DNA from: a virus
Virus record (IMG/VR): IMGVR_UViG_3300032241_003019
Coordinates: 1 to 44,716 of that record
Direction: 5' to 3' (one strand)
Length of the DNA: 44,716 bases
The position numbers and the translations under genes are program-made. Positions 22,613 through 42,971 of this stretch are shown piece after piece; the first letter of the stretch is position 1; every line of letters begins with the position of its first letter. Below the pieces are notes generated by a model. It did no database searches. It was not told the origin of the DNA and worked only from the letters and a program-made list of their open reading frames with translations.

Positions 22613-23239
22613 ATGAAAAAAACCTCACTTCTTTTGACGCTGGCCGCGCTATTGATTGGCGCGCTTGCCAGCCCCGCGCAAAACATCGGCCTGTACACGT
22701 TCCCGCCATTTACCGGTGCCGGCAGCGTGGTTCAGCAGGCGCAGACCACGAACACGTTTATTTCCTACACGTTTACCAACGGCATTTGGAACGGCGTAAC
22801 GACCACGAACAGTTACCAGACGATCACCGGCGGCCCCGGCAGTTATACGAATGCTCTGACGCAATCTGTCCTTGCATACGATAATGTTGGGCTCACTTAT
22901 TTTTATCAGGCCGGTTTTGCGGATACGAATGCGCCGATCGGCATCCAGATTTATCGCTCCTACAATTACGGCGTAACGTTTGAGCCGAATCCCTGGCAGG
23001 TATGGACCAATCCCGCCGCCACCGCTGCAGCTCAATTTACCTATGCCACCAATCTTGCGGCGCAAGGTGTCACCACGCTGGGTTTCAATTTCATTAACCT
23101 GGCCACGAATGGTTATTCCAGCAACGAACTCTTTGCCGCCAATTTGAAAGCCCCCACCGCGCAATATGTGCAGGCGGGAATCTATAACGGACCGACCACC
23201 CCCACGCCGAGTGTGATCAATACGAATTGGGTGCCTTGA
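22613..23239 (+). CDS. Exported protein in the head module (signal peptide, A|Q site)
   Basis: The N-terminus is a textbook Sec signal peptide: KK, a hydrophobic core LLLTLAALLIGALA, then SPA with predicted cleavage before Gln (mature protein starts QNIGLY). The mature 185 residues are rich in Thr, Asn, Tyr and Gly, with repeated TNxFxSYTFTNG-like beta stretches, as in secreted or fibre proteins. It is the last gene before the head-operon terminator. Candidates are a decoration protein, an adhesin or a host-surface protein. Its export signal fits poorly with cytoplasmic capsid assembly. Confidence 0.68.
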   Translation: MKKTSLLLTLAALLIGALASPAQNIGLYTFPPFTGAGSVVQQAQTTNTFISYTFTNGIWNGVTTTNSYQTITGGPGSYTNALTQSVLAYDNVGLTYFYQAGFADTNAPIGIQIYRSYNYGVTFEPNPWQVWTNPAATAAAQFTYATNLAAQGVTTLGFNFINLATNGYSSNELFAANLKAPTAQYVQAGIYNGPTTPTPSVINTNWVP

Positions 23240-23286
23240 TTTCTGCCGGCCCGTTGCCGGCCGATGCCCGAGGTTGACGCATGGTT

Positions 23287-23321
23287 CCCGCCGCATTGGC
23301 AATCCAATGCGGCGGGTTTTG
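23287..23321 (+). terminator. Strong Rho-independent terminator after the exported head-module gene
   Basis: A perfect 13-bp stem (23287-23299 with 23304-23316), rich in G and C, with a 4-nt loop CAAT, is followed by TTTTG. It lies 48 bp after the stop of the exported-protein gene. A second, smaller hairpin with GCCGGC arms (23245-23250 with 23256-23261) precedes it. It should end most transcripts of the packaging/head operon. On the other strand no T-run follows, so it acts mainly rightward. Confidence 0.88.
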
Positions 23322-23353
23322 TCCTTACGGATGGTTAATTTTTTAAAATCCCC

Positions 23354-23725
23354 ATGAATGCCATTCAGAGATTGCAGATGACGGCCGGGCAGCGAAAGCA
23401 TGAAGCGTTTTTCGGTGCCAAGATGGGAATTTTTCAGGCAGACACAGACATAAATCCGTTGACGGATCCAATTCCGTGTTGTCACACGAATATCCGGGAA
23501 GATATGTTCCAGACGGGCGCTGGCATCCAAATGGCGACCATGGTTGATGCCATCACGTTTCGCGCGGATCAGTGTGGCGGCAATATCCCCACCAAGACGA
23601 CGCCGTTTACGCTATATCCGGCCAATGGTGCGTTGCCGGTCGATCTGCAGCTATGGGATGGCGGTTTGCTTCCGGACGGCTTAACGTACCAATTCAAGGC
23701 CGTGGACGCGAATTTCAAGGCGTGA
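23354..23725 (+). CDS. Phage structural-type protein (123 aa)
   Basis: The protein begins 33 bp after the terminator. It has an N-terminal helix (AIQRLQMTAGQRKHEAFFGAKMG), then a region with PCCHTN and a beta-rich second half (IPTKTTPFTLYPANG, PVDLQLWDGGLLPDGLTYQFKAV). This may be a small head-tail connector or tail-completion protein separated from the tail operon by the leftward island. The gene ends in a palindromic GGCGAGCTGCC element. No family recognised. Confidence 0.52.
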   Translation: MNAIQRLQMTAGQRKHEAFFGAKMGIFQADTDINPLTDPIPCCHTNIREDMFQTGAGIQMATMVDAITFRADQCGGNIPTKTTPFTLYPANGALPVDLQLWDGGLLPDGLTYQFKAVDANFKA

Positions 23726-23844
23726 ACGGCGAGCTGCCGGCGGCTACCAAGATAGCGATGACCAATTGCAATTCAGGCAGCCCCAAATGATCCAACCAGC
23801 GCACCAGGCCACAAACAGCCATTCCTGCCAGGTCAGTTGAGATT

Positions 23845-24108
23845 TCATTTGAAGCGCGGATCCTCTAGGAAAGCTTTGGCCCCGGCAACAGTATCCGATA
23901 ACAGATGCGCAATATCCGGCGGAATGGATTTGCCCCGCGCGATTTCAGCGCGAACCACGGCCCGCACGCGCTCGCGCAATGTTTCGCGCAGAAATTCATC
24001 CAAGGGCATGGCTTTATGCCCCGCGCCGGCGCGCTTGGCGGCCCATTGGATCGCGCCGAATTCATCCGCCGGCATGGTGGCTTTCAAATCGCGGAATTTG
24101 TCGCTCAT
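23845..24108 (-). CDS. Hypothetical helical protein (87 aa), end of leftward operon
   Basis: A mainly helical, charged protein (FGAIQWAAKRAG, LDEFLRETLRERVRAVVRAEIARG, PPDIAHLLSDTVAGAKAFL). It is the last gene of the leftward block and starts 9 bp after the preceding gene ends. Between its stop and the convergent gene at 23354-23725 lie 119 bp (23726-23844), in which I see only one palindromic element (23725-23750) and no clear terminator. No family recognised. Confidence 0.55.
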   Translation of the reverse strand: MSDKFRDLKATMPADEFGAIQWAAKRAGAGHKAMPLDEFLRETLRERVRAVVRAEIARGKSIPPDIAHLLSDTVAGAKAFLEDPRFK

Positions 24109-24117
24109 GATTCGATT

Positions 24118-24444
24118 TTAGGGTTTGGAATTGATGGTGTCCACTGGTGGATTTGGCTGCCATTGCCGCTTATTTTCATCACCATTTACCGGCAGCCATT
24201 TACCGTTTTGCTGGAGGATATTCCAATAATGATGTTTGCCTTGATGATTCCAAAGTGCTGGCGGGATATTTTTGAGCCAGCGGCTAATGATTTCGCGCCC
24301 GATATATTCGACAATTTGGCCCGCTTTTTCATCTTCCAAAGGCGCGGGATTGTGCTGGGCAAGATGCCACAGAAACGCCAGATATTCATCGTTGTAAGTG
24401 GTCAGTTGTTCGGGTTTTTCGGGCAATTCAATTTGGATGTTCAT
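24118..24444 (-). CDS. Hypothetical protein (108 aa)
   Basis: The protein starts with a short strand (NIQIELPEKPEQ) and has helices with aromatic residues (YNDEYLAFLWHLAQHNP, KAGQIVEYIGREIISRWLKNIP). A Trp-rich loop follows (HHYWNILQQNGKWLPV), and then a Pro/Asn-rich end. It resembles small phage accessory proteins, without a family match that I can name. It lies in the leftward block between the ligase and the last gene. Confidence 0.55.
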   Translation of the reverse strand: MNIQIELPEKPEQLTTYNDEYLAFLWHLAQHNPAPLEDEKAGQIVEYIGREIISRWLKNIPPALWNHQGKHHYWNILQQNGKWLPVNGDENKRQWQPNPPVDTINSKP

Positions 24445-24469
24445 ATTTGTGTTTATTTTGGGTTAAATT

Positions 24470-25126
24470 TTAAAACCGGACCAGCCAGCTTGTTTCAGTG
24501 TCTTTGCAGGGGCGCGGATCGCGGATTTTACCCCCCGCGTGCAGTCCCAAGCCTTCCACCTTGACGATGGACCCCACGCGAAATTGCCCCACGCGGTTGC
24601 GCAGCGGACAGGTGCCACGATTTTCGCCCGTTATGGCGTCCACGATGGCCGCGCCGCCCGTGGCGTAATTGATGGCGGTCACAGCGCATTGCCAGGTCTG
24701 GAGCCGTTTGCAGGCGGTCATGGCGTCATAATAGGTGGCATGGGGCAGCTTGCGCACAATGCCCTCGCCGCCGCGCGCCAGCACGCGCTGGAGGAGCGCG
24801 CCGCCGTCCTGAACCGTTTCCACCATCGGCAGCTTGAACCGCTCACAAAGCCCCACCATGGCCATAAAGCGGTCCATGGTGCCGGCCCCGCGCAAGTCCT
24901 GGCCATCGGATGCCAAACAATCCCAAACGATAATCCGGCCATCGGCCATTTTTTCCACTGTCAGGATGTTATTTCCGCCTTTCGCGCTTTCGGTCCACAG
25001 GGAAAATTCCCCGTCCAATTTTTCTTGATAGATCGCGCCGTCATTTCCCCAAGCCAAGCCAACGGCGAGCGGAACGATTTCCTTGCGCGGATGGGCAATG
25101 GCTGGGCTCGTCAGATGTATATTCAT
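24470..25126 (-). CDS. Small ATP-dependent DNA ligase-like nucleotidyltransferase
   Basis: The protein has the ligase motifs in order: motif I EKLDGE with the AMP-accepting Lys36, motif III-like IIVWDCLASDG (65-75), motif IV EGIVRK (121-126) and motif V VGSIVKVEG with Lys189. At 218 residues it holds little more than the adenylation domain, smaller than T7 ligase (359 aa), and the OB domain is reduced or missing. In motif I the usual Arg after KxDG is Glu-Phe. It should seal nicks in DNA or act in repair. Its start overlaps the stop of the upstream gene (ATGA). Confidence 0.72.
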   Translation of the reverse strand: MNIHLTSPAIAHPRKEIVPLAVGLAWGNDGAIYQEKLDGEFSLWTESAKGGNNILTVEKMADGRIIVWDCLASDGQDLRGAGTMDRFMAMVGLCERFKLPMVETVQDGGALLQRVLARGGEGIVRKLPHATYYDAMTACKRLQTWQCAVTAINYATGGAAIVDAITGENRGTCPLRNRVGQFRVGSIVKVEGLGLHAGGKIRDPRPCKDTETSWLVRF

Positions 25127-26013
25127 ACGGTTACGGTGTTTTCTTCACGGTGCATGAGGGTGGAAAGGTATTCGCCCGCGCCGCAACTCCATTCCACGCG
25201 GCAACCATTTACCCAACTCCAAAGCGCGTTTTCATTCGCAAATGATTCCGGCATGGCCACGCCATATTTGCCCGCAATGGCGCGCGCGAGGCGTTCAGCA
25301 TAGGCAAAACTCATGTGGCGGCTGGTGGTGACGTATTTTGCCCCGCCGCGCACCAGGACACAATCCGGCGAATGTGGATCGCCGATGGATTCCGGGCAAC
25401 TCCCCGCGCTGCCGCCGGTGCTTTCCGAATGTGCCAGGGACATTTCCCCATCGCGCGAAAGCCAGCGGTCTTTGCTGTATTCCATATCAATCATGCCATC
25501 AAACCCGGCAAAGCTGTAACGGCTGGTGATTTTATTCACATCGGCCCCCAGCGGTCCATCGGTCCAGCTAACGCGCACCGCGCACCCCATGGAATAGTTT
25601 TCCGAGGTTACGGAAAATTTGATTTCCGGAAAATGGCGCTTGAGCGCGGCCCGGACGCAAATAGCCGTGTCCGCCGCTGAAATATAATCGCGGCCGGTGC
25701 GCACCAGATTCCAGACATCCAACGGGGTGCGGCATTTTTCGGCGGTGATTTTGACGCGGCGGGCGAGTTTTTCCGCCGCTGATTTTTCTTTGCCCGCGAT
25801 AAACTCCGCGCAGTAATTGCGCGCGCGGGTTTCATCGGAAAAGGAGTAATAAAAATCAGGACGGGCGCGTTTGCCTGAAAATCCCTTGCACATCCATTTT
25901 CCCCCCGGCCCCGGCGGTAGCAAATAGCAGATGGCCGCGCATTTTTCGGATTGCATCACGATAGCGTCTTTGTCTTTTGGAATGTAAAATTCCCGGTCTA
26001 ATGTCAGTCTCAT
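25123..26013 (-). CDS. LPD29-domain protein (large polyvalent-protein-associated domain)
   Basis: The middle region matches the LPD29 pattern as I know it: ADTAICVRAALKRHFPEIKFSV, then RVSWTDGP, then SFAGFDGMIDMEYSK. LPD domains were defined in polyvalent proteins that plasmids and phages inject or use early in infection. Before it lies a part with IVMQSEKCAAICYLLPPG. After it come a Ser/Cys-rich segment and a C-terminal region with ERLARAIAGKYGV. I choose the ATG at 26013; the frame extends to 26046. The molecular role is unknown, with an early anti-host or DNA-protection role plausible. Confidence 0.65.
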   Translation of the reverse strand: MRLTLDREFYIPKDKDAIVMQSEKCAAICYLLPPGPGGKWMCKGFSGKRARPDFYYSFSDETRARNYCAEFIAGKEKSAAEKLARRVKITAEKCRTPLDVWNLVRTGRDYISAADTAICVRAALKRHFPEIKFSVTSENYSMGCAVRVSWTDGPLGADVNKITSRYSFAGFDGMIDMEYSKDRWLSRDGEMSLAHSESTGGSAGSCPESIGDPHSPDCVLVRGGAKYVTTSRHMSFAYAERLARAIAGKYGVAMPESFANENALWSWVNGCRVEWSCGAGEYLSTLMHREENTVTV

Positions 26014-26102
26014 ATTTTTTTTAGTTCGCCGGATCACGTCCGGCACGTTTGCGGATTATTCCCCGCGCTAGGCCGTTGGCTCTGGCCAGCGGCCCCGCGC
26101 GA

Positions 26103-26300
26103 TTAACATTCCAGTTTCATTTCTCCAGCCAGCACGGCGCGGCCCAATTCAATGGCGGCATGGTCCAGAAACATTTCGCGCGTCAAATCCACGCGCGGTT
26201 GCGGCTTGGTTTCTGGCTGGCGCAAGGTTTCCCCCGCCAGATTGAACGTATCACCGGCAAAGCCAAATTCGCGCGGCGGTTGAATAAATTTCGTTTTCAT
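26103..26300 (-). CDS. Small hypothetical protein (65 aa)
   Basis: I take the ATG at 26300, which follows the clamp-loader stop (26305) by 4 bp; an upstream in-frame start would overlap that gene. The protein is polar with a Pro-rich middle (LRQPETKPQPRVDL) and a C-terminal helix (REMFLDHAAIELGRAVLAGE). It probably depends on translation of the upstream gene. No family recognised. The following 100 bp to the next gene hold nothing I can identify. Confidence 0.45.
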   Translation of the reverse strand: MKTKFIQPPREFGFAGDTFNLAGETLRQPETKPQPRVDLTREMFLDHAAIELGRAVLAGEMKLEC

Positions 26301-26304
26301 AGGT

Positions 26305-27138
26305 TCAACGGTTTGCGGCAAAGAATTTCGCGGCCAGTTCTATTTCAGCGAGCGCGCTTTTGCGTCCGCCATCCGGCAACGCGGGAATAATTTCCGCTGG
26401 CTGGCTTTCCAGCGAGCGCGCGGCCAGTTGCGCGGCTTGCGCTTCGTCGTCCTCACGCTGGAGCCTGATTAGGGGTTCAAGCGCGGATAAAACCGAGCGG
26501 AAAGAAACATATCCGGCATCTTTCCAGCCGTCCAAATCCGCCAAACGCGGTGAATGATTGTGGCCAAGTTCCGCCTGCCAAACGTCGTCAATCAGACTTT
26601 GCGCGGCAGTTTCGGCAAGGCTTTCCGGCTGATCGAATCCGCGCGCCGGCGTCTTGAAAGCATGGACTTCGCACCGCTGTTTTAACCGGCTTTCAAATCC
26701 GGCAATGTCATTGGTGGTGAAAATCACCACAGTTTTTTCCGGCAAATGTTCCAGCACATCCAAAAATATCACGCTGGCTTGTTTGCTCATGGCGTCCGCT
26801 TCATTGCATAACAGGACTTTCCAGCCGGAACCGAAAAACGGACGATAACAAAGCGTGGTTTTGAACATCTCGCGGACGGTATCCGCATTCAGTTCGCCGC
26901 TGGCGACTTCAAATAATCCGCCGGTTGCCAGCGGTTTCACTGAAAAATCGCAACCGAGTTCTCGCGCCAGCGCATAGGCCGCGCTCGTCTTGCCACTTCC
27001 CGGCGGCCCGTGAAAGATAAAGGCTTTGCTGGTGGCTTTGCGGCAAAAGGATTGCAGCATTTTGACAATCATCGGATGGCCGCGCAAATCGGCCAAAGTT
27101 TGCGGGCGATATTTTTCAGTGAGGGATAAATTTTGCAT
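26305..27138 (-). CDS. AAA+ clamp-loader-like ATPase (RFC small subunit / DnaX type)
   Basis: The protein starts with LTEKYRPQTLADLRGH, the typical RFC/DnaX opening, followed by Walker A GPPGSGKT (44-51), a Walker B region LLCNEADAM (109-117), a sensor-1 TTNDI (141-145) and RLKQRC (151-156), which holds the arginine of the SRC motif. The C-terminal third is the helical collar. In Walker B the Mg-binding Asp is Asn112 while the catalytic Glu113 is kept. The protein would load a sliding clamp, either the host's or one not recognised here. It has no phage polymerase neighbour. Confidence 0.8.
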   Translation of the reverse strand: MQNLSLTEKYRPQTLADLRGHPMIVKMLQSFCRKATSKAFIFHGPPGSGKTSAAYALARELGCDFSVKPLATGGLFEVASGELNADTVREMFKTTLCYRPFFGSGWKVLLCNEADAMSKQASVIFLDVLEHLPEKTVVIFTTNDIAGFESRLKQRCEVHAFKTPARGFDQPESLAETAAQSLIDDVWQAELGHNHSPRLADLDGWKDAGYVSFRSVLSALEPLIRLQREDDEAQAAQLAARSLESQPAEIIPALPDGGRKSALAEIELAAKFFAANR

Positions 27139-27156
27139 GGTAAAAATGGTTTGAAA

Positions 27157-27333
27157 TTACGCGGTGATGGCTTTCAACTGAATTAGGCCGCTGGCCAAAA
27201 TGACAAGCTGGACACGATTTCCGGCGGCAAAACCAGTCTTTGCTGGCCAATTGCCTTTGATGCGGATTGCAGGGTGGATTTTATTGGCGGCAAAATCGCC
27301 GCGCGATTCAATCTTCAGGGTGCGTGAACTCAT
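27157..27333 (-). CDS. SymE-like small protein (58 aa)
   Basis: The frame runs from the ATG at 27333 to TAA at 27157. The core PAIRIKGNWPAKTGFAAGNR (residues 21-40) followed by VQLVILASGLIQLK matches the SymE family, whose signature is P-x-I-x-L-x-G-x-W-L-x-x-A-G-F-x-x-G. SymE has an AbrB-like swapped-hairpin fold; in E. coli it is an SOS-induced protein linked to nucleoid condensation and RNA cleavage. Here the first gene of the leftward operon is SymE-like, placed behind a strong promoter and about 80 nt of leader. It may be a host-takeover or addiction factor, or just a DNA-binding protein of this fold. Confidence 0.68.
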   Translation of the reverse strand: MSSRTLKIESRGDFAANKIHPAIRIKGNWPAKTGFAAGNRVQLVILASGLIQLKAITA

Positions 27334-27419
27334 AATCAGTCTTTCGTTTGCCGTGCGGCCCGGCTGGCCTTGTGGTTTGTCCTGTCCACAACCAAGGATT
27401 CATAACTGAATCTGAAATG

Positions 27420-27447: not shown

Positions 27448-27454
27448 TCCCTAA

Positions 27455-27834: not shown

Positions 27835-27855
27835 GCCACAAACCGCGCTAAATTA

Positions 27856-29612: not shown

Positions 29613-29617
29613 TTTTT

Positions 29618-29896: not shown

Positions 29897-29950
29897 GCGG
29901 TTGACTGAATCCAATTTTCGAGCGGCGAGCCGCACTGGCAAATGTATTTT

Positions 29951-30400
29951 ATGAAAAAACTTTCTCTCTCAATTTTTTTGGTGGTGACTGTGCTGATGCT
30001 GGCGTTTTCGGCACGGGCGCAGATTGTCAATGCGTATACGCCGGTGACAGGAACGAATTATTATCCCGTCTATACGGCATTTCAGATCACCAGCAACCAG
30101 ACGAGCATGGCTTTTCAAAGCCACACGCTGGTAATGACAAACATCAATACCAATGAGCAGGTTTTTGTATCTTATGGGACGGTCCCTTACGGACAGTCGC
30201 CAACGGCAGCGAATTACAACCAGTTGGTTGGTTTCTGGACGAATTTCCCAGCGAGCGCCGGATGGACAAACGGGGCGACCTGGTCTTATACAGTGCCATC
30301 ACAGTTCTATGCACCGGCCATTTCACCGGCGGCAGAGCTGTGTATCAGCAACAGCCAGTTTGCGAGCGGATCGTGCACCAATCCGACAATTTTTCAATAA
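29951..30400 (+). CDS. Exported protein in the tail module (signal peptide, A|Q site)
   Basis: From the ATG at 29951 the N-terminus is KK followed by a hydrophobic core (LSIFLVVTVLMLAF) and SARA with predicted cleavage before Gln (mature start QIVNAY). The mature protein has about 126 residues and is rich in Thr, Asn, Tyr and Ser, with beta-type stretches such as TLVMTNINTNEQVFVSYG. Composition resembles the exported protein at 22613-23239. It lies between the tail-terminator and tube candidates, a place normally held by cytoplasmic structural genes. Role unknown. Confidence 0.66.
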   Translation: MKKLSLSIFLVVTVLMLAFSARAQIVNAYTPVTGTNYYPVYTAFQITSNQTSMAFQSHTLVMTNINTNEQVFVSYGTVPYGQSPTAANYNQLVGFWTNFPASAGWTNGATWSYTVPSQFYAPAISPAAELCISNSQFASGSCTNPTIFQ

Positions 30401-32013: not shown

Positions 32014-33895
32014 TTCCATCAAATTTACCATTGGCGGACAGCTTGGGGCTTCGTATCGCGGGGCATTGAACCAAGCGGTTACTGAGGCGCAATCGGCAAA
32101 TACGCGGCTGCAAAGAAGTCTCAAGCTTGACCTGGCGAAAACGAATATCGCGCTAGCGAATGCACCGGCCCGATCGGCAGAGGCATCGGCGCTGTTCATG
32201 CAGCAACAGAGTTTGATCACCCGCCTAAATTTGCTTTATGCGGCGTCGGCCAAACAAAAAGCATCATTGAACGCTTCCGAGGTTGCGGCGGTGGCGACGG
32301 CAGCCGCAGAGAAAGAAGCGGCCAACCGAGCGGCCTTGGAAAAAATTATTGCGGAGGAACGGGAGGCGGGAATTGCCTTGGCGGCGGAACAGGATGCCGA
32401 GGTTGCGGCGGTGGCAGAGGCGGAAGCGGAAAAATTAGCCATCCGTCGCAAGGCAAATTTGGAAAGCATGGTTTTGGGCCGCACCGGAAAATCAGCGGCG
32501 GCACAGGCTTATCTTGACGAGGCAGCGGCGGCGATGCGGGCCGGGTTTGCCACGCAGGAAATGGGATCAAGTGCCCATGGCGCAGAGGGCGCGGTGGTCA
32601 ATTTGCGGCGCGGTATGGCGGAATTGACGGTGATTGTGCGCGAACTGGCGGCGGGACGCGGTTTCGCGCGGGTGTTTTCATCCGGCATGCTGGCGGCGCA
32701 ATGGTTTGGTGTCGCTGTGACACGGATTTTATTTTCAATTCCAGGACTGGTGGCCATAGCGGCCATCGCGATTGGCTACGTACTGGTGAAAAGCTGGCAT
32801 GCGGCCAAGGAGGCGGCGGATGACTTCAAGGAGCATATGAGCCGGGCAAATGATGTTTTCCGGGATGGCGCAGATGCGCTGGAAAAACATCATCAGGCAA
32901 TGTTGCGAAATATCGCGGCAGCCAAGGAATTCAATGAATGGCTCACAAAACTTGGTAAAACAGAGGAATCGGCCACGGACGTACTGGATGACCGGTTGAA
33001 GGCGATGAAGGAAGAATATGCGCTGCGCCGGCAGATTGCGGAGAATCACGGGGCCACACCGCAGCAACTGGCCAAAATGGACCAGGATGAGCGGAAAAAG
33101 GAACTGGATGCCGAGCAACAGACTTTAAATAAATTGAAGGCGGATGCGGCGGCCGCCAAACAAGCGGCGGTGGATGCCCACACCAAGGCCGAAGCTAACC
33201 GCGCCAATTTGGACGATGACAAGGGCAAAAAGGATTTCGATAAGACCATCGAGGCGGTGGAATATTTCAATTCGCGGATTCCGCAGGAGGTAAAGGATAA
33301 AATCGCCGCCAACGATAAAACGATTGCGGATTACAAAGAAAAGGAAGCGAACGGGGTGCCACTGACGATCAAGGATTTTCTGCACATGAAGTATGCGCAG
33401 GATGAAAACGACAAGATGTATTCGACGGAGTACGGCAAGGAATCGCTGGTCGGTATTGGTGATGGCAAGGCGATGGTCAGTCCGGGCGAAGTGCAGGGAA
33501 TTTATCAACAGGCTTTGTCGAAACGGGCCCTGTATCTGAAACAGCAGGAGGATTTGGCCAAAGACCAGGCGGATCTGGATGCGGCGGAAAAAGACAAAAA
33601 ATCCACTGCGGAACAGCACGCGGCGGAAGTGAAACGGCTGACAAAAAAGGTGGGCGAGGATAAAGCCGCAATTGACCTGCATGACAAATATGACAGCCAA
33701 TTGACGGCCTCGGAAAAAACGCGCCCTTTGCACCTGGCGGCCACGGATTGGGAAAAGGCCGGCGGCGCTTTCGGTGGCCACGGGGTTTCGATGCTGGATA
33801 TTGGCAAGCAGCAATTGACGGAGCTAAAGGGGATTCATCATGAGGTAAAAACCAATAAGAAAAACAGCCGTGGCGTGAATTTCGGAGACCACTGA
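32006..33895 (+). CDS. Tape measure protein
   Basis: The 629-residue protein is almost all helix and coiled coil, rich in Ala, Lys and Glu (for example AEKEAANRAALEKIIAEE and KRLTKKVGEDKAAIDLHDKY). One hydrophobic segment (ILFSIPGLVAIAAIAIGYVLV, about residues 244-264) is typical of tape measures that enter the membrane during DNA injection. The family sets tail length at about 0.15 nm per residue, so a tail near 90-100 nm can be guessed. It lies between the chaperone candidate and the distal tail genes. Confidence 0.82.
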   Translation: MGDSIKFTIGGQLGASYRGALNQAVTEAQSANTRLQRSLKLDLAKTNIALANAPARSAEASALFMQQQSLITRLNLLYAASAKQKASLNASEVAAVATAAAEKEAANRAALEKIIAEEREAGIALAAEQDAEVAAVAEAEAEKLAIRRKANLESMVLGRTGKSAAAQAYLDEAAAAMRAGFATQEMGSSAHGAEGAVVNLRRGMAELTVIVRELAAGRGFARVFSSGMLAAQWFGVAVTRILFSIPGLVAIAAIAIGYVLVKSWHAAKEAADDFKEHMSRANDVFRDGADALEKHHQAMLRNIAAAKEFNEWLTKLGKTEESATDVLDDRLKAMKEEYALRRQIAENHGATPQQLAKMDQDERKKELDAEQQTLNKLKADAAAAKQAAVDAHTKAEANRANLDDDKGKKDFDKTIEAVEYFNSRIPQEVKDKIAANDKTIADYKEKEANGVPLTIKDFLHMKYAQDENDKMYSTEYGKESLVGIGDGKAMVSPGEVQGIYQQALSKRALYLKQQEDLAKDQADLDAAEKDKKSTAEQHAAEVKRLTKKVGEDKAAIDLHDKYDSQLTASEKTRPLHLAATDWEKAGGAFGGHGVSMLDIGKQQLTELKGIHHEVKTNKKNSRGVNFGDH

Positions 33896-33896
33896 T

Positions 33897-34835
33897 ATGT
33901 CACTCATACTTGATGGCCCATACAATGTGATTGCCAGCCCACGCCAGCGTGGTTTAAGCACGGCGTTTTGCCAGCGTCAAACGGGGCGCTGGAGTCCGGT
34001 GAACGGCTGGACGTTTGACCAGGAATTCAGCGGGCTATCACTCGCCGTGATGCAGAATTTGGCGAACATATATGGCGGCGCGGGCATTGAGTACGAATTA
34101 ACGTATCAGAATGGCATATCGAAGCTGACGACACGGGACACGACGGGAAATATCACGATCGACGTTTGGGAGATCAACGCGAATCAAGTGACGGTTAGCT
34201 GGCTGAAAAATCCACTGCTATTGGCGAATCTATACATCGTTGCGCAGGCATATACTGGCAGCGCGGATCAAAACGTGCTGGATTGGAATGTGACCCGTTT
34301 TTTGGGCAAAATGGCGGCTGGGATTGATAACAATTCTTCCCCGCTGGATACAACCCAGCCGGCGTCAGTGGCGGATGCTACGGGGGTTTTCTCATCGAAC
34401 AACTTTTTTGACGGGACGTTTACATTTGATTTTATCAGTTCATCGGTCTGTCTGCCCATCTTGCGGGCATACCAGCGGGCACAGGCAGGCCAGGATGTTT
34501 TTTTTGCCGACCAATACACCTTGCGCCACACGACGAGCGCGAGCAATCGCGGGTATTTCAACGTGGCAGATAGGAATGTGAATGCGCTGCAGACACAGAG
34601 CCAGTTCTACACGGAAATTACGAACGGGGGCTATTGGATTTTTCCAGCCCCGAATGAAATCATCGGGGCTTTGAACGTGATTTTTAACAGCCTGACGCCA
34701 GTTCCTGCGAATTATATGGCGGGCGCGCTCAAGGGCGGCTCGAGCCGGGTGACAGCAGCAAATAACCGGGTAAACATCGTTACGGAATACAAACTTTTTA
34801 ACTGGTCCACGGATGATTATCCGCTGGCCACCTGA
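33897..34835 (+). CDS. Distal tail protein candidate (312 aa)
   Basis: The protein follows the tape measure gene by one base. It is mixed beta-rich with stretches such as GIEYELTYQNGISKLTTRD, NITIDVWEINANQVTVSW and FTFDFISSSVCLPILRAYQRAQAGQDVFF. It ends with VNIVTEYKLFNWSTDDYPLAT. Proteins at this place form the tail tip hub or its collar (Dit-like). No known family signature is evident, so the name is positional. Confidence 0.52.
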   Translation: MSLILDGPYNVIASPRQRGLSTAFCQRQTGRWSPVNGWTFDQEFSGLSLAVMQNLANIYGGAGIEYELTYQNGISKLTTRDTTGNITIDVWEINANQVTVSWLKNPLLLANLYIVAQAYTGSADQNVLDWNVTRFLGKMAAGIDNNSSPLDTTQPASVADATGVFSSNNFFDGTFTFDFISSSVCLPILRAYQRAQAGQDVFFADQYTLRHTTSASNRGYFNVADRNVNALQTQSQFYTEITNGGYWIFPAPNEIIGALNVIFNSLTPVPANYMAGALKGGSSRVTAANNRVNIVTEYKLFNWSTDDYPLAT

Positions 34836-34838: not shown

Positions 34839-35222
34839 ATGGGATTTCCACATCCACCAGTACGGCCGACCGGCACGGATTCGGAAGCTGTATTCATGCA
34901 GCGCGTTTGGGACATGTTATGGGATCCGAAATCGAGCATTTTTTGCGATAACCCGGCGCTGAATTTTGACAAAACGCCAAAAGGTTATGTGCCGAAGATA
35001 AAACGCCCTGGTTCATCACCGCCAAGTGGCAACTGGAATTATCGTGGGTATTTTGATCCGGTTGTGGGTGCCGCCGGCGGATACAATATTTACGATGTGG
35101 TTCAATACGGCGGCGGAACATCGGCTGGCGGCTATCTCTCAACGATCAACGGAAATAGCAATGTGCCTGATTCCGGCATCGGCTGGGTTCAGGTTTTCAC
35201 CGGCACAGGCGTATGGCTGTAA
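34839..35222 (+). CDS. Tail-tip protein with carbohydrate-binding-like module (127 aa)
   Basis: Residues 65-122 read WNYRGYFDPVVGAAGGYNIYDVVQYGG, then YLSTINGN and GWVQVFTGTG. The pattern W/Y-x-G-x(n)-Y-x-x-Y-D-V-V-x-Y-x-G-x-x-Y-x-S-x-x-x-x-N-x-x-x-x-x-x-x-G-x-x-W is that of small carbohydrate-binding modules seen in phage fibres and chitinases. The N-terminal half is Pro-rich with a helix SEAVFMQRVWDMLW. It may help to bind surface glycans. It overlaps the start of the large adhesin gene by 10 bp. Confidence 0.55.
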   Translation: MGFPHPPVRPTGTDSEAVFMQRVWDMLWDPKSSIFCDNPALNFDKTPKGYVPKIKRPGSSPPSGNWNYRGYFDPVVGAAGGYNIYDVVQYGGGTSAGGYLSTINGNSNVPDSGIGWVQVFTGTGVWL

Positions 35223-38200
35223 CCAATCAAAGCAAGATTCTGGTAAGCGACATGAGGCAGTTGGCGGCTGCCGCAAATGCGGCTTGCGGAGTCGGTCGTT
35301 TGTCCAGCGTAGTTTCGCCACTGTATCAGAATAATGGCGTTGATTGGGGATACCAACACGCTGATTATCTCGCCTTGGTTCCGACTGCACGCGGCACCGG
35401 CTACAAGCCTGGCGATACCATTCAGGGCTTTGGGAGCAACCTGCTGTGTACATTGCAGGTGGAAGCCGTGGATACCAATGGCGGAATCATCGGGCTTAAA
35501 ATTGTTTCACTTTTTCCCATGCCTCCGAATCTGTCCGGCATCAGCAGTCCGGCATATATAACGAGCGTGTTTGGTGGCGCAAACACCAACGGTAGCGGAG
35601 CGCAAGCCACTTATGGAATGAACGTTGCCGGACCGTCTGTGAGCTACAATTTTCCTGATTATGCCATAAACAATGGACGTATCACTGGCGTTGTGGCTTT
35701 GAAGCCTGGGACTGGCTATCAGGCTGGTGATGTTATCAAGCTGCCGTTTTCTGCCGCGAATGGCATGGCGGTGGTTTCACAGACAATCACGGTCAATACC
35801 GTGGATAGCAACGGTGGCATTCTGACGCTCACTCCGAATTATCCATTTTTGGCTTCGCAATTTGTGCCGTCAAATATCACGTCCATGTCTGGCACGGGCG
35901 GGAGCGGCAATGGCGCGGTGTTTGCGGGATTGTATCTGATGTCGGCTCCTACGTCATGGGCAAGTGAACTTTCGCGTTTGAGAACGAATCTTTCAACATA
36001 CCTGACTGCGATGGGCTATGATGCCAGCAAAACGGCCATTAGCGGGCCTTGGCCGATTTCCGGGCCGGCATGGAGCAACCACGATCAATGGTTCTGGTTT
36101 GAGGACAAGGGCGGCACAACGCCGAGTGTGACAGTCAGCGCGTCCATGAACGTGGGGTCATCATTTGGCCGGTTCACAACACAGACACTGTATTGCGAGA
36201 AAAAAATTCAGCATCGCGGTCCCGGCTATTCGGCAGCGTATTGGGACGGCACAGCCGGACAGGTTGCTTACGCCACGCCACCGCCGGACTTTGATTCCAA
36301 GTTGCCGAAAAATTATCCTAACGGAGGCCCGAGCCCAGGCGGAAACAATTACGATTTCGGCGACAACCTTTTAACATCTTATCCCTCTGGTTCTGGCGTT
36401 GGCAACGATCCTCTTTATGCGAACTACAGTGAGTACAGCATTATCATCGGCGGCAATCAGAATGTGACACTGACTGGCGTGTTTGTCATAAAACTGTATG
36501 TCATTCCCGGCGCGACACAGTATTACAAAAGCTCAGGCGGCGGCGGCGGAACTTACGGGCCATTCACACAAACATTTACGAACACCCCAGACGCTGCGGC
36601 GTCGAACCCGGCGAGCCTTTTAACCATCGGTGGAAATTTTCCGGGTACGTTTTCAACGTCATACACTCCGGGCACTGTCACAAATCCCGGAGTCATTACC
36701 CTGAAGTGGACCTGCAACCAGACAATTGCACCCGGCGAATATACCGCGACGGTGACTGTCAACAATCAGGGAAACGATTCTGACACGGACGTTTACTACG
36801 AAGGCACAAGGATGGATACCGATCCTTCGAGCAACACGTACGGCCTTCAAATACCCGATGGCGATTCAGCCACACGGACACGGACATGCGTTACAAATAC
36901 GCGAATCTACGGCATTTGGCAAAAACCCGCCTCGGGAGCCTTAGGCGAAATGTATGGGCTTACCGGAAATTTTCCGACTGTCAGCATCACTTATACGTCT
37001 TCCGTGGCAGATAACGGCATTGATGGCAATTACAACATCAAGCGAATCAATCTGCCCGAGAGTGCACAAGATAATGGTGGAACTTATCCGGCTGGCATTT
37101 ATGTGGTTCAGGTTTCGGCGGTTGACCCTCCAGGTACGCCTGGAATTTTGGCGACGTATTCAAACCTTGGACGCACGGCCACCATTGATGCTTACGGCAA
37201 CGAATATACGTCAAACAACACTTATTATTATCCGTCGCAAGCCTTCACATATACACAGGCCAATCTTGATCCGAGCGGATTTTTCGGCGGCACTTACGCG
37301 AACAACAATATCATCAGTTTGATCAGTGAGTTTCCACAGCCTTTTTTCAACATGAGGAAGGTGCTGGCAGCCGGATCGTGGGGCGTCTCGACTTCCGTGC
37401 CAGGATTCTGGACCGGCATCACACAACCGATTGCGAATATAAACGCAGTGACGGTTGATCTGATGCCGTGGAATTACGTTTGCTATAAAAACAAAACTGG
37501 CGGTGGTATTTTTCAAGAGAATCCGATGCTTTTGGGAAATCTGAACCCTGACAACATCGCCGCGAGCAACAGCTATCCGCAAACGACAAATGTTGAGTCT
37601 CAGAACGAACCGCCGCCATGGAAGGCACAGACTTGGTTTACAGTCGGTTTTGTCATCGCGGATTCGCTCGGCACAAGTTTTTTCAAATGCACGGCTGCGG
37701 GTTACAGCGGGGCCAATGAACCGAATTGGAATAAAACCAAAGGTGCGACCACAAACGAGACACACGATCCGGTGCCGACCGGCGGGACAAGCACTTGGGC
37801 GAAGTGGAATTGTATCGCGGTCGCAATCCGTCCGGCCTTGCATCGCGCCCGTCCGATTCCGCGCTATCCGTTCTACTGGCTGAGTGAGACCATAGCCGCG
37901 TTAATGCCGCCGGCAAACTCGTCTGAATCCACAAAGACAATCTGGGGCTGTGGCAATCAATGGCAAAGAAACAACTATGGTTCAGGCTCGCATCAAGCCG
38001 GTTTCCAGCAAGACAACGCGGCCAAGGGCTGGTGGATTTATTCAGTCAGCATCAACCGGATCACGGCGTTGCCGACACCAGTAGTTCCCGGCAACGGCAT
38101 GGTTGGGGCCGGTAATGGCAACGTCGGGGCTGGCGATACCACCACGGGCGCGGGCGGCGGTTCTACGGCTAACCCGGCGAGTGTGGCGGTGACGATTGGC

Positions 38201-38428
38201 TGCATCCGTAGCGGCAGTTTCGTTGCTTTCGGCACGTACAATACAGGTCAGACCGTGCAAGTGCTTTGGCCGATTTTCACTTCTGACGCCTTGGTTTACC
38301 AATGCAGTGAGCGCGTTGACATTCAGGCCGTGGCCATCCGCAACGTATCAACCGGCTTTGGCGTAAATCATCCGATCTGCGCGGCATTTTTTAACGACAC
38401 GTTCAACCTGTTACCCCTCGTACAATGA
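35213..38428 (+). CDS. Large tail adhesin / host-specificity protein candidate (1071 aa)
   Basis: This is the largest gene. It holds two copies of a GTGYxxGD-type domain: GTGYKPGDTIQGF near residue 61 and GTGYQAGDVIKLPF near 167, each ending in a VDxNGGI strand pair. A middle section is Gly/Asn/Tyr-rich (residues 320-560). A C-terminal carbohydrate-binding-like module follows: WKAQTWFTVGFVIADSLGTSFFKCT and WAKWNCIA. A Gly/Asn linker precedes a final domain. There is no signal peptide. By place and size it corresponds to lambda J or the receptor-binding complex. Its stop overlaps the next start (ATGA). Confidence 0.68.
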   Translation: MAVTNQSKILVSDMRQLAAAANAACGVGRLSSVVSPLYQNNGVDWGYQHADYLALVPTARGTGYKPGDTIQGFGSNLLCTLQVEAVDTNGGIIGLKIVSLFPMPPNLSGISSPAYITSVFGGANTNGSGAQATYGMNVAGPSVSYNFPDYAINNGRITGVVALKPGTGYQAGDVIKLPFSAANGMAVVSQTITVNTVDSNGGILTLTPNYPFLASQFVPSNITSMSGTGGSGNGAVFAGLYLMSAPTSWASELSRLRTNLSTYLTAMGYDASKTAISGPWPISGPAWSNHDQWFWFEDKGGTTPSVTVSASMNVGSSFGRFTTQTLYCEKKIQHRGPGYSAAYWDGTAGQVAYATPPPDFDSKLPKNYPNGGPSPGGNNYDFGDNLLTSYPSGSGVGNDPLYANYSEYSIIIGGNQNVTLTGVFVIKLYVIPGATQYYKSSGGGGGTYGPFTQTFTNTPDAAASNPASLLTIGGNFPGTFSTSYTPGTVTNPGVITLKWTCNQTIAPGEYTATVTVNNQGNDSDTDVYYEGTRMDTDPSSNTYGLQIPDGDSATRTRTCVTNTRIYGIWQKPASGALGEMYGLTGNFPTVSITYTSSVADNGIDGNYNIKRINLPESAQDNGGTYPAGIYVVQVSAVDPPGTPGILATYSNLGRTATIDAYGNEYTSNNTYYYPSQAFTYTQANLDPSGFFGGTYANNNIISLISEFPQPFFNMRKVLAAGSWGVSTSVPGFWTGITQPIANINAVTVDLMPWNYVCYKNKTGGGIFQENPMLLGNLNPDNIAASNSYPQTTNVESQNEPPPWKAQTWFTVGFVIADSLGTSFFKCTAAGYSGANEPNWNKTKGATTNETHDPVPTGGTSTWAKWNCIAVAIRPALHRARPIPRYPFYWLSETIAALMPPANSSESTKTIWGCGNQWQRNNYGSGSHQAGFQQDNAAKGWWIYSVSINRITALPTPVVPGNGMVGAGNGNVGAGDTTTGAGGGSTANPASVAVTIGCIRSGSFVAFGTYNTGQTVQVLWPIFTSDALVYQCSERVDIQAVAIRNVSTGFGVNHPICAAFFNDTFNLLPLVQ

Positions 38429-40071
38429 AAATCAAAATCATCCTCGCGCTATTGCTTTCATGCGTTTTTAGTGCCGAAGCACAAATCACCGCCGTTGACA
38501 CGAACACGGTTCACGCAATCGGCGGGAGGCAATATATCACTGGCGATCCAAACCCGCTCGCGTTCACGAAGATAATGGTTGATCTTTACTGGCTGCAAAA
38601 TTGGTGTGCCACCAACAGCGCGACGAATCTGGTTTTGTCTGCGAAGGTGGATAGTTTGGTTACAAACGTCGCCGCGCTGGTGACGAATACAGCATCACTT
38701 GATGGCGTGGTTTCTGTCATATCGTCACTCAATACAAACGTCTCAGCACTTGATAATCTGATAACCGCTCTGCCCGGCACAAACATTCTCGGGGGGACCG
38801 TCGCGACAAACAACTTCTCTACGGCGGCGATGGGTTACTTCGGTCTATTTCCATACACCGGAACAAATCTTGTGGATAACGGTTTTTCTACCGGAGCGGG
38901 CGGGGATGTCCCGATAGCGAACGGCGACGGCACTTGGACGTGGCAGGTTCCCGCCGGCGGCGCATCGAGCGTGACAAACTTTTCCTTGACGGTCTCGAAT
39001 CAGAATTACGCCACCAGCCCTACCACCATAGCCGTGGGCGTAACAAATGGCATAGGATATTTCATCTTCGGAGTTCCGACCAATGCGCCCAACCTGGTCA
39101 CAAATAATTATTACAACCTGTCGAATACCGTTGTTTCCAGCGCCACGCTGCTACTGATGAACACGAACTTTAATTTTGCGTACTCCAATTTCCTTGGTGT
39201 CTTCACCAACGTCTCGCGTGTGGCTGCATTAGGCCCGGTATTGGGCGGCGGCGGGTTAACTCCGGGTACCAACGCGACAACGTCGGTTTTCTATTCGCCG
39301 ACCGGCACCAGCGGTTGGACGACTAATATGCCGGCATTGCCCAACATCACCTATATCGCCGTCACAACTGTTTCTACCGGCGGCTTCGGCAAGGTTCAAA
39401 TCAACGCCATACAGAATTCCGCTGCGCGAGGGAACACGAACGATTTGACGTTCCAAACCACCTACGTTGATGATGCGGTTGATGCGCGGTCGCCAGTGAC
39501 TTACTCACAGTTTCAGTTGATGCTTGCGAACACAGCCACTTTCCAGAGCACGGGGACAAATTATGCGTGCTTCATCAACGGACAGAGAATGATTGAGGCG
39601 TTCCCACCCAACTACATATTTTCCACGAATGCCACGCTCGTCGTTGATGCTACCGGAACCAATCTGGCGTTGAGCTTTTCCACCGCGAACCTTGTGACTG
39701 GATCATTCCTGATAATGAGCACGAACTTGCTGCAATTTGGCGGCGGATTTCAGCCATACAACGGGCCGTACACGCTGACAACCGGAGGGGGCACAAGCAC
39801 GTGGACAATTCCCATGTATGCAATCAGTCCGAGCTATTCATTCTTTCAAGTGGCAGGGCTTGGCCATGGAACGCTCCAAGCGGATTACGCCATGAACTTT
39901 TACGGCGGGACAGCCTACCCCTCCAACGGATGGAGTCTGACCACCATAACCAACGCACTGGCCGCGCTTGGGCCTGGGAAACATTATCTGACGACAAGCA
40001 GTAACGGCCTTGCACTTGTCACCCTGAGCTACTCAAACGGCGTTGTGAGGTACGTACAAGCCCTTTACTGA
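38425..40071 (+). CDS. Exported fibre-like protein (signal peptide, A|Q site)
   Basis: Residues 1-19 form a signal peptide (KIKIILALLLSCVFSAEA) with predicted cleavage before Gln (mature start QITAVD). The rest has Asn/Thr/Ser-rich beta-type repeats: VSSLNTNVSALDNL and similar heptad-like units around residues 70-120, then many TNxxG elements. This is like phage fibre shafts. It lies straight after the adhesin gene by ATGA overlap. A fibre with an export signal is unexpected: phage fibres normally assemble in the cytoplasm. It may be shown on the host surface instead. Confidence 0.65.
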   Translation: MKIKIILALLLSCVFSAEAQITAVDTNTVHAIGGRQYITGDPNPLAFTKIMVDLYWLQNWCATNSATNLVLSAKVDSLVTNVAALVTNTASLDGVVSVISSLNTNVSALDNLITALPGTNILGGTVATNNFSTAAMGYFGLFPYTGTNLVDNGFSTGAGGDVPIANGDGTWTWQVPAGGASSVTNFSLTVSNQNYATSPTTIAVGVTNGIGYFIFGVPTNAPNLVTNNYYNLSNTVVSSATLLLMNTNFNFAYSNFLGVFTNVSRVAALGPVLGGGGLTPGTNATTSVFYSPTGTSGWTTNMPALPNITYIAVTTVSTGGFGKVQINAIQNSAARGNTNDLTFQTTYVDDAVDARSPVTYSQFQLMLANTATFQSTGTNYACFINGQRMIEAFPPNYIFSTNATLVVDATGTNLALSFSTANLVTGSFLIMSTNLLQFGGGFQPYNGPYTLTTGGGTSTWTIPMYAISPSYSFFQVAGLGHGTLQADYAMNFYGGTAYPSNGWSLTTITNALAALGPGKHYLTTSSNGLALVTLSYSNGVVRYVQALY

Positions 40072-40100
40072 GCCGGAATTGACTTTTTGCGGTGGGTAGC

Positions 40101-41252
40101 ATGACTGCCAGCATCCCGCGTTTATTCCAAATCTTCCTGGGCGCGCTCGCCATCCTTCTGGCCGGCGCGGCCATTGCGCCCGCTACACCAGTGGTGGGTT
40201 TCAGCACGGATGTGACCCAAGCGCCATTTGTCGGGCGGATCAATACTATCCAGTTCAAGCCGCTGGCGGTGTCCATTGGGAATGGCACAAACACAATTTT
40301 TCCATGTTCGACGGGCTATGCCACGATCACGAATGGACTTTTTGGCATCAATCTGAATCCCGGCTGGTATTACGCCAGCCCGGTTTTACTTTCCACATTC
40401 GGACCCGTCATTCACCCGATTGCCATTTATGTGCCAAACGACACAAACATCTGGCAATTCAACGCCTGTGCCAATCTGGCAAATTACGCAATCCAGACCG
40501 GCCAGACGAATATCGTCATCATCGTTACGGCGACGAACGTAAGCAACGCGAGCGGGACGAACGTAAGTTTTGAAGGGAATTTTACTGACGTTAATGGAAG
40601 CCAGTTGATTGCCGCTAATTTTATGCAGTCAGGTTCTGGCGGTTACACCCTTAACGGCAGTTACAATCCATCAACTCACGCGGGTTATGCTGCGCTCACT
40701 TTAAATGCCGCAGGGCCATATCAGGGTTTGATCGTGAACGGCGGTGCGACAATTTATGGCTTGGGTGTTCCTGCTGCATATACAACTTCGCTCGATGGCG
40801 GTGGAGTTGTCACTGACGGCAATGGCAATTTAAGCGCCGTATCGTTTACAGGAACCGGCGCGGGCGGGTTTCTGGATGGCAGCGGCGGCGGCGGGTTTAA
40901 TGAAGAATCGCCGAATGGCTATTCGGATACAGGCGGCGGCGGATTTTTTGAAGAAAGCCCTAACAACGGTGGTGGTTTTTTTAACCTCACCGGCAAGGGT
41001 GGTGTCTTTAACCATGCGGGCGGAATCACCAACGACGCGCCGGGTGGCATAGTTGAAAAATCATCGGCGGGCATCCGCATCCAGGGCGCGGGCGCACTTA
41101 CCGTTTCCAGCGGGATCATAACCAATGGCGTTGTGGTCTGGCTTACCACCAATGGACTGCCGATTTTCAGTGCGCCAAATGGTTCGCTTTGCACCCGTAC
41201 CGATACCGGACAGCTCTACGTCAGAACTAACTCAACGTGGGTTGGAAAATGA
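40101..41252 (+). CDS. Exported Gly-rich fibre-like protein
   Basis: From the ATG at 40101 the first 28 residues form a signal-like segment (FQIFLGALAILLAGAAIA), with possible cleavage after AIA or APA. The mature part resembles fibre proteins: beta-rich N-terminal domain, then a Gly-rich section with two GGGGF-x-EESPN units (about residues 255-290). It ends with LCTRTDTGQLYVRTNSTWVGK, an ending seen in many tail-fibre C-termini. Two bases of overlap (ATGA) link it to the next gene. Whether it is a virion or surface protein cannot be told. Confidence 0.62.
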   Translation: MTASIPRLFQIFLGALAILLAGAAIAPATPVVGFSTDVTQAPFVGRINTIQFKPLAVSIGNGTNTIFPCSTGYATITNGLFGINLNPGWYYASPVLLSTFGPVIHPIAIYVPNDTNIWQFNACANLANYAIQTGQTNIVIIVTATNVSNASGTNVSFEGNFTDVNGSQLIAANFMQSGSGGYTLNGSYNPSTHAGYAALTLNAAGPYQGLIVNGGATIYGLGVPAAYTTSLDGGGVVTDGNGNLSAVSFTGTGAGGFLDGSGGGGFNEESPNGYSDTGGGGFFEESPNNGGGFFNLTGKGGVFNHAGGITNDAPGGIVEKSSAGIRIQGAGALTVSSGIITNGVVVWLTTNGLPIFSAPNGSLCTRTDTGQLYVRTNSTWVGK

Positions 41253-41632
41253 AAACTATATCCACCATCTTTTTCACCGTTCTGTTGATTTGTCTTATTG
41301 GCTGCGCTTCCGCCGCACCGTTGCCGCCGGCACCGAAAACGCAGCCATTTACGGTCGGATTTACCAATCAATCCGCTCAGCCATTGCTGGCGGGCAACCG
41401 GATGTTCATGTTGCCGCCCACGTCCAGCGATTTCACCAACGGCCTGCAATCCACGAATTGGGTCTATGGCACCATCACCGGCCCCACGAACCAATTGACC
41501 TGGCCCAATCCACCGCCCGGTGCGCAATTCACCGTTTCCGCCACCGATCCGCAAGGTAACGAAGCCGTGGCGCAAGTGACCGTTTCCAACAATAACCAGG
41601 TCATCGTAGCGCCAATTCCCAAAAACCCATGA
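41249..41632 (+). CDS. Lipoprotein (127 aa)
   Basis: The ATG at 41249 overlaps the preceding stop. Residues 1-18 form a lipoprotein signal: a hydrophobic stretch ending in the lipobox LIGC, so Cys18 should be lipidated. The mature part has a Pro-rich spacer (APLPPAPKTQ) and a beta-rich domain with VYGTITGPTNQLTWPNPPPGAQFTVSATDPQG, which resembles a fibronectin-type fold. A small lipoprotein next to a membrane-anchored coiled coil suggests an outer-spanin or exclusion role, but it lacks usual spanin features. Confidence 0.62.
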   Translation: MKTISTIFFTVLLICLIGCASAAPLPPAPKTQPFTVGFTNQSAQPLLAGNRMFMLPPTSSDFTNGLQSTNWVYGTITGPTNQLTWPNPPPGAQFTVSATDPQGNEAVAQVTVSNNNQVIVAPIPKNP

Positions 41633-41949
41633 AACGCGACACCGTAAATCTCCTATTCACCGTGTTGACGCCTTTGCTTGGCATCCTCATCGCTTGGGGA
41701 TTCAATGCCAAATTGGATGGCATCAAAGCCGATGTCACCGCCCACACTGACGCCGCCGTGGCCGGGTTGAAACAGGCGAATACGGAAATTTTTGAAACGC
41801 AGGCAGCCCATTCCGCCGATATGCAAAAAATCGGCGATTGGACGCGCAAGATTCAGGATGGCGAAACCGCTACCGCCCAAAACGTTGCCGTTCTCTCCAT
41901 CCAGGTCGCCGACATGAAAAGCAAACTCACCGCCCAAAACGCCGAATAG
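41629..41949 (+). CDS. Membrane-anchored coiled-coil protein, inner-spanin-like candidate
   Basis: Residues 6-24 form one membrane helix (VNLLFTVLTPLLGILIAWGF). The rest is a soluble coiled coil (residues 28-105) with heptads such as VAVLSIQVADMKSKL. This N-in, C-out shape with a coiled coil is that of inner spanins; the neighbouring lipoprotein could be the outer partner. It could also be a holin-associated protein. It starts by ATGA overlap and is followed by the lysis/host-surface genes. Confidence 0.52.
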   Translation: MKRDTVNLLFTVLTPLLGILIAWGFNAKLDGIKADVTAHTDAAVAGLKQANTEIFETQAAHSADMQKIGDWTRKIQDGETATAQNVAVLSIQVADMKSKLTAQNAE

Positions 41950-41961
41950 GGGCAGGCACCA

Positions 41962-42249
41962 ATGAACGAAACCAACCAAGTCATTCAGATCGCGCAACAT
42001 ATCGCCACCGCCAGCGGTTATAACCTGAGCGGCTATGAAATCGCCGCCCTCTGCAGCTTGCCGCATGTCATCGCCCTGCATTTTTGGGCTGGCGTCCGGT
42101 ACTACGCTTGGATCGGCGGCTGGGATGGCATCAAGCGGTTTCTCAAGACGGGAACCATTGCGCCAACAATGGCACGGCCAGCGGTTGACGTCGCGCCTTT
42201 ACCGAAAACTGAACCCGCCGCAATAGCGGCACAACCATCGAAAACATGA
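41962..42249 (+). CDS. Small protein of lysis/host-surface region (95 aa)
   Basis: The protein has a moderately hydrophobic middle (YEIAALCSLPHVIALHFWAGVRYYAWIGG, residues 25-53) that could form one membrane-associated helix, and a Pro/Ala-rich polar C-terminus. It might be a small holin-type protein, but the helix contains charged and polar residues, so a soluble role is as likely. It starts 12 bp after the coiled-coil gene and overlaps the next start by ATGA. Confidence 0.45.
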   Translation: MNETNQVIQIAQHIATASGYNLSGYEIAALCSLPHVIALHFWAGVRYYAWIGGWDGIKRFLKTGTIAPTMARPAVDVAPLPKTEPAAIAAQPSKT

Positions 42250-42971
42250 AAAAGTTCATCGCTATTATCCTCGCCGCCGCCGCTCTGGCCATTACCAGTA
42301 ATGCTCAAATCGTCACCAACGGCTCAACAGTTGCCGCCAGCCCCCAATTGCCTGCATTAAACGCTGCCAGTTGGTTTCCCACGCCATCGGCTCCGACCGG
42401 TACAAATTCGGTTCAAAGTGCGGTCGGCAATGTTTTTGCCGCTTTCACGGGCGGTAATACGAACTGGTTTTGGGTGCCCTACGGACTTTATGCGCCGGGT
42501 TTGAAACACAAGGCTGGTGGCGGCATTGGACTTTTCTGGCCGGTCAGCCAAGGCGGCGTGGTGGATTTCTATACCGGCGTGCGAGTGGATTACGTGGACG
42601 GTGGGTTTTGGATGCCAAGCGGCAATGCCACGCTTGCCGAGCCAATCAATGTGGCTTCATGGTTCCAGATCACGCCATTGACCTATGCCGGCATCGGCGT
42701 GCCATTGAGCGGTGCCACCATCGGCAATATCAAGGTGCCCGGCCAAGCCAAGGATAACAATGGCCAGGCGACGGCGATTCTTGGTTATGGCATCAGCATC
42801 CTGATCTATCAGCCGGTAAGCCAGAGCTGGAGCATAGGATTGATCGGCGATGCAGAAAACTGGTCCGGCTTTCCGAAACAGCAATGGCGCTTCGGCGCGA
42901 ACTTGAACATGAAGCGCGGCGGCCTGTTCGGCCTGGGGCTGAAACTTGGCAAAATCGGCGGTGATTGGTGA
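42246..42971 (+). CDS. Exported outer-membrane barrel-like protein (signal peptide, A|Q site)
   Basis: Residues 1-20 form a signal peptide (KKFIAIILAAAALAITSNA) with predicted cleavage before Gln. The mature part has alternating beta-type strands with Gly turns and aromatic girdles (GGIGLFWPVS, VVDFYTGVRVDYVDGGFW, RFGANLNMKRGG). It closes with LFGLGLKLGKIGGDW, which resembles a barrel ending. Lambda likewise carries an outer-membrane protein, Lom, downstream of its tail-fibre genes. The likely role is to alter the host envelope in lysogens or block superinfection. Barrel topology should be tested. Confidence 0.62.
   Translation: MKKFIAIILAAAALAITSNAQIVTNGSTVAASPQLPALNAASWFPTPSAPTGTNSVQSAVGNVFAAFTGGNTNWFWVPYGLYAPGLKHKAGGGIGLFWPVSQGGVVDFYTGVRVDYVDGGFWMPSGNATLAEPINVASWFQITPLTYAGIGVPLSGATIGNIKVPGQAKDNNGQATAILGYGISILIYQPVSQSWSIGLIGDAENWSGFPKQQWRFGANLNMKRGGLFGLGLKLGKIGGDW

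Follow-up and report, generated by a model that had tools for sequence, protein, structure and literature searches.

We found that a temperate phage of the phylum Verrucomicrobiota carries six genes whose products are strongly predicted to be exported, and that fibre-like proteins predicted to be exported also occur in several relatives infecting that phylum. Comparison of these phages revealed the export signals, their recurrence, the homology of several of the relatives' proteins to tail fibres, and their proximity to envelope genes. The DNA analysed (hereafter, the window) is a 44,716-base IMG/VR record, and the virus is a lambda-like temperate siphovirus.

Host phylum and phages compared

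The terminase encoded in the window was 66% identical to one in a MAG of Verrucomicrobia subdivision 3. A search with a major capsid profile detected prophages in 5 of 388 genomes in a sample of the phylum and in 40 of 293 genomes from the order of the MAG. The window was compared with contigs G001, G002, and L015, prophages G340, G293, and G214, and ~10 relatives from the MAG's order. Because some of these genomes are MAGs, misbinning of single prophages is possible. A remoter capsid group (G700, G751, and others), which apparently consists mostly of small tail-less elements, was left out of the comparison. A related capsid gene, accompanied by a TM/lipoprotein pair, was observed on small elements in many genomes of the order. 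In this group (L115-L128; G700, G751, G863, G768, G732, G680, and G888), an integrase without recognisable tail genes was seen in most elements; they are possibly satellites.

Other features of the window were also recorded. A block of minus-strand genes (23845-27138), including a clamp-loader-like ATPase, is inserted between the head and tail genes of the late region, and L010 contains the same block. At 3399-3629, a 15/30-bp tandem repeat (14.7 or 7.7 copies) encodes a GRDRAGFDR-type repeat, and a similar repeat-like frame lies at the beginning of G002. Many genes of the window have no Shine-Dalgarno motif, and A/T-rich runs such as AATTTTTTTATG stand ahead of their starts.

Predicted export signals in the window

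The N-termini were examined with a home-made signal-peptide scorer that applies rules for the n-, h-, and c-regions, and each was compared with 2,000 shuffles of itself. All six frames named in the preliminary description were found at their coordinates, each with a charged n-region, a hydrophobic h-region, and an AxA-type or lipobox c-region; the three regions with an AxA-type site are those of Sec/signal peptidase I (SPI) substrates. For each of the six, between 0 and 16 of the 2,000 shuffles scored as well, with 40101 being the weakest (Table 1). Among ~60 called genes, the only strong matches were the six and the N-terminus of the major capsid protein; 41249, which the gene caller had mis-started, was scored separately. 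As calibration, 11 of 1,220 shuffled host N-termini scored >5. In phage lambda, the scorer picked exactly Lom, Rz, and Bor, and in Bacteroides phage B124-14 and Flavobacterium phages FCL-2 and 11b, it picked one lipoprotein each. The starts of 22613 (no other Met) and 38425 (ATGA overlap with the preceding stop) are well supported, and alternative starts are possible at 29942 for 29951 and at GTG 40092 for 40101. As judged by the scorer and these controls, the six N-termini are real export signals above chance, which bears out the signal peptides first read from the sequence.

Table 1. Genes of the window and predicted exported proteins of related phages
Source	Coordinates	Strand	Feature	Evidence
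Window	20660..21916	+	Major capsid protein, extra ~58-aa hydrophobic N-terminus	PHROG 247 major head protein, E 8e-40
Window	22613..23239	+	Predicted exported ~200-aa protein (signal peptide MKKTSLLLTLAALLIGALASPA↓Q or ALA↓S)	Score 6.05; 0/2000 shuffles
Window	29951..30400	+	Predicted exported 149-aa protein (MKKLSLSIFLVVTVLMLAFSARA↓Q)	1/2000 shuffles; before presumed tail-tube gene
Window	35213..38428	+	Tail-tip protein	No signal; 34% identical to last tail gene of G686
Window	38425..40071	+	Predicted exported fibre-like protein (MKIKIILALLLSCVFSAEA↓Q)	1/2000 shuffles; directly after tail-tip gene, start overlaps tip stop
Window	40101..41252	+	Predicted exported fibre-like protein, signal MTASIPRLFQIFLGALAILLAGAAIAPA, C-terminus ...APNGSLCTRTDTGQLYVRTNSTW	16/2000 shuffles
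Window	41249..41632	+	Lipoprotein, lipobox LIGC, proline-rich; o-spanin-like candidate	0/2000 shuffles
Window	41629..41949	+	Single N-terminal TM and coiled-coil-like region; i-spanin-like candidate	Sequence
Window	41962..42249	+	Small membrane protein, holin candidate	Sequence
Window	42246..42971	+	Predicted exported beta-rich protein (MKKFIAIILAAAALAITSNA↓Q), ends in Trp; outer-membrane-barrel candidate	1/2000 shuffles
Window	43058..43519	+	Papain/NlpC-like small enzyme, possible endolysin	Sequence; no Pfam match
G002	25907-26845 and 33106-34335	Reverse	Predicted exported fibre-like proteins	
L015	13211-16075		Predicted exported protein, 954 aa	
G340			Predicted exported protein, 654 aa	SGNH-like sequence by reading
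G293			Predicted exported proteins	676-aa protein and a beta-helix-like one
G686			Predicted exported protein, 840 aa	BNR_2 domain, 3.6e-9
G214			Predicted exported protein, cut off at contig end	Weak laminin-G match

Four of the six had been described as cleaved at A↓Q, recalling the Q-rule, which is described as specific to Bacteroidetes (PMC5837995). A↓Q was the best-scoring site in 29951 and 38425 only; two sites compete in 22613, namely ALA↓S and SPA↓Q, and likewise in 42246, where they are ALA↓I and SNA↓Q. Gln at position +1 was predicted in 2 of 5 window proteins by the best-site rule and in 4 of 5 by a lenient rule accepting any nearby A↓Q site. In the subdivision 3 MAG, the corresponding predicted counts were 9/54 and 12/54; a second host genome gave 2/21, and flanking samples gave 3-6/24. 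Gln at +1 therefore occupies about 10-25% of predicted host SPI substrates, against a background of about 4% in mature regions. We rejected the Bacteroidetes-type rule, since the host belongs to Verrucomicrobiota and Gln at +1 marks a minority of SPI substrates. The A↓Q sites of the window are best read as an enrichment common to phage and host.

Two genes, the major capsid gene and the one after it, lie immediately upstream of 22613. A homologue with a signal peptide (38% identical) occupies the same slot in G001, and similarly sized exported proteins are predicted there in G745, G812, and G784c, so that the slot is filled in this way in five phages. Homology of 22613 to the latter three is weak (hhalign E 0.007-0.05; controls, 0.2 or above). 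The proteins of G812 and G784c are 82% identical, with dN of 0.22 and dS of 0.84 in the signal region, indicating that this region is translated and under purifying selection. The AlphaFold model of the family (pLDDT 46) was too poor for a fold search. The homologue search with 29951, whose mature part contains two Cys, gave none. The seventh hydrophobic N-terminus, that of the capsid protein, was absent from the preliminary list. This extension (20660-20830) has two hydrophobic segments; it is absent in G001, G002, and G616, and a similar signal-like one is present in L015.

At the other end of the region, 41249, 41629, 41962, and 43058 look like an ordinary lysis cassette. A lipobox was seen in 41249, which has the i-spanin-like candidate as its neighbour and is itself a candidate o-spanin. 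The signal-bearing 42246 resembles an outer-membrane protein, and in lambda Lom has a comparable position. No homologue of 42246 was found, including among close relatives in viral contigs, and its AlphaFold model (pLDDT 33) was too poor to support a barrel or to use in a fold search. By sequence, 41249 and 42246 fit an ordinary lysis/envelope cassette, with counterparts in spanin-like lipoproteins and Lom. The initial suggestion that all six proteins form one system was thus not sustained.

For 38425 and 40101, "fibre-like" refers to position, composition, and C-terminal motif. Family searches, fibre families included, gave no match for either, and searches of viral contigs gave no close relatives. 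A protein of G002 with a signal peptide aligned weakly to 40101 (32% across the alignment; tblastn E 0.012). By eye, neither protein showed a recognisable signal for sorting beyond the outer membrane. A shared N-terminal domain of 40101 and the exported protein of G686 was considered and rejected, as hhalign scored it no better than an unrelated control; the sole match in a search with the tail-tip protein was an actinophage, which was judged irrelevant.

Fibre-like proteins in related phages

Fibre-like proteins with predicted signals were found in six relatives: two each in G002 and G293 and one each in L015, G340, G686, and G214. Three of these phages link the signals to known tail families. 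The L015 protein matched PHROG minor tail (8.5e-16) and tail fiber (8.7e-8) profiles and was 60-66% identical over ~100 aa to minor tail proteins of Gordonia phage (an actinophage). A G293 protein matched a PHROG tail fiber profile (2e-6) and was 54-63% identical over ~60 aa to the tail fibres of Rhizobium phage RHph_N3_13 and HMO-2011, and the G340 protein matched a PHROG tail protein profile (2.6e-10). By homology, these proteins are tail fibres or tail proteins, and in this lineage the Sec signal thus sits on real tail-fibre sequence. All four homologues from outside Verrucomicrobiota that were read start without a signal peptide. Domains of a surface-glycan type also occur among the relatives' proteins: BNR_2, a weak laminin-G match, and, by reading, SGNH-like sequence in G340 (without a Pfam match) and beta-helix-like sequence in G293.

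The preliminary description had raised the export of fibre- or adhesin-like proteins from a virion operon, and conservation in phages of the same phylum supports it. Nine other tail-bearing relatives (G616, G784a-c, G834b-c, G740, G812, and G745) had no exported fibre, indicating that export is not essential to the lineage. When the phylum was scanned with a single tail PHROG, 2 of 378 genomes were hit, too few to measure generality.

Possible roles and known counterparts

The reading that we prefer, with confidence about evenly balanced, is that late-made exported proteins of fibre or depolymerase type act on the envelope of the infected cell itself. The late operon would encode the lysis/envelope cassette together with Sec-exported fibre- or lectin-like proteins (38425 and 40101) and the exported post-capsid protein (22613), and signal peptidase I or II would cleave their predicted Sec signals. 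From the packing of the operon, in which the genes are interleaved with virion and lysis genes, we infer late synthesis; if so, the proteins would build up outside the cytoplasm before lysis. They would then act on the envelope or surface glycans of the infected cell, where they would block the phage receptor, strip it off, or loosen surface polysaccharide. As a result, progeny would leave without re-adsorbing, and superinfection would be excluded. In G002, G340, G293, G686, and the window, exported genes adjoin lipoprotein and holin-like genes.

The strongest rival, which we consider rather unlikely, holds that the exported fibres are virion parts, folded in the periplasm and joined to tails lacking fibres either upon collapse of the inner membrane by the holin or after lysis. 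The slot after the tail-tip gene contains an exported gene in the window and G002 and, as read from the sequences, a cytosolic fibre in G616, G834b, G740, and G812; these four phages have no exported fibre. This pattern, with the homology of three relatives' proteins to tail fibres, favours completion of virions outside the cytoplasm. However, the exported fibres of L015, G340, G293, and G686 and one of those of G002 lie between head and tail genes, mostly beside envelope genes rather than the tip, and no conserved tail-docking domain was detected among the exported fibres. Cys residues are few (one each in L015 and G293), so disulphide folding offers no general reason for a periplasmic route. 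With virion completion, the slot shared with cytosolic fibres would make sense, but the position next to the lysis cassette would not. That the lineage exports receptor-binding fibres via Sec and completes its virions outside the cytoplasm, the periplasmic fibres being attached to fibreless tails at lysis, is, in our estimation, unlikely.

It is less probable again that the hydrophobic N-termini are uncleaved anchors, which would hold virion components at the inner membrane during assembly with none released. The hydrophobic N-termini of the capsid proteins of the window and L015 could be trimmed off by a head protease, and signal-bearing capsid proteins of Porphyromonas gingivalis phages are interpreted as anchored in this way (PMC10367356). 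Yet the c-regions of the six proteins are of the AxA or lipobox type and stand as far from the h-region as in signal peptides, and the capsid N-terminus is variable among relatives. Ordinary prophage cargo (morons), changing the lysogen with no tie to virions or lysis, is a slightly poorer prospect. Lambda Lom is exported and encoded between J and the side-tail-fibre genes, and 42246 and 41249 would fit such a role well, but the co-directional packing of the late operon, the overlapping starts and stops (38425/35213 and 41249/40101), and the occupied post-capsid slot in five phages argue against it. Chance hydrophobic N-termini or wrong start codons, conceivable because short signals can arise randomly and 40101 scored weakly, are very improbable and already largely refuted by the shuffles, control phages, and comparative evidence.

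In the textbook view, tailed-phage assembly is wholly cytoplasmic, and exported phage proteins are a few lysis or lysogenic-conversion factors. The literature searched, covering few subscription journals or preprints, contained no report of exported tail fibres. To this extent, the early statement that no such system is described stands; it does not extend to signal-peptide genes, since P. gingivalis phages with such genes, some obeying the Q-rule, and with signal-bearing capsid proteins have been published (PMC10367356). Like the window, these 'Nixviridae' are tailed and temperate and have several signal-peptide genes; for five of these, exposure of an N-terminal Gln is predicted. They differ in their Bacteroidetes host and true Q-rule, and the accessible text calls the five genes unknown and describes no exported fibres.

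Lambda Lom and Bor are likewise exported proteins of a lambdoid phage. Unlike the fibre-like proteins, Lom is a barrel and Bor a lipoprotein, with one per locus rather than several in a virion operon. The adjacent lipoprotein 41249 and single-TM protein 41629 resemble the Rz/Rz1 spanins, although 41249 is longer than Rz1, its gene is separate rather than embedded, and the order is reversed. The exported proteins of L015, G293, and G340 match tail-fibre or tail families and differ from the fibres and depolymerases of tailed phages in their Sec signals, which the four homologues checked in other phages lack. Such signals on fibre homologues recurring in one phylum would mean either a second life for fibres outside the cell or virions finished outside the cytoplasm. 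The second life would consist of hiding the receptor that the phage itself uses or stripping it off, much as neuraminidase does for influenza. Llp of phage T5 is a receptor-blocking lipoprotein, and the role proposed here is likewise to mask the phage's receptor on the cell it has infected; Llp is small and the window candidates are fibre-like, so the likeness lies in the proposed role.
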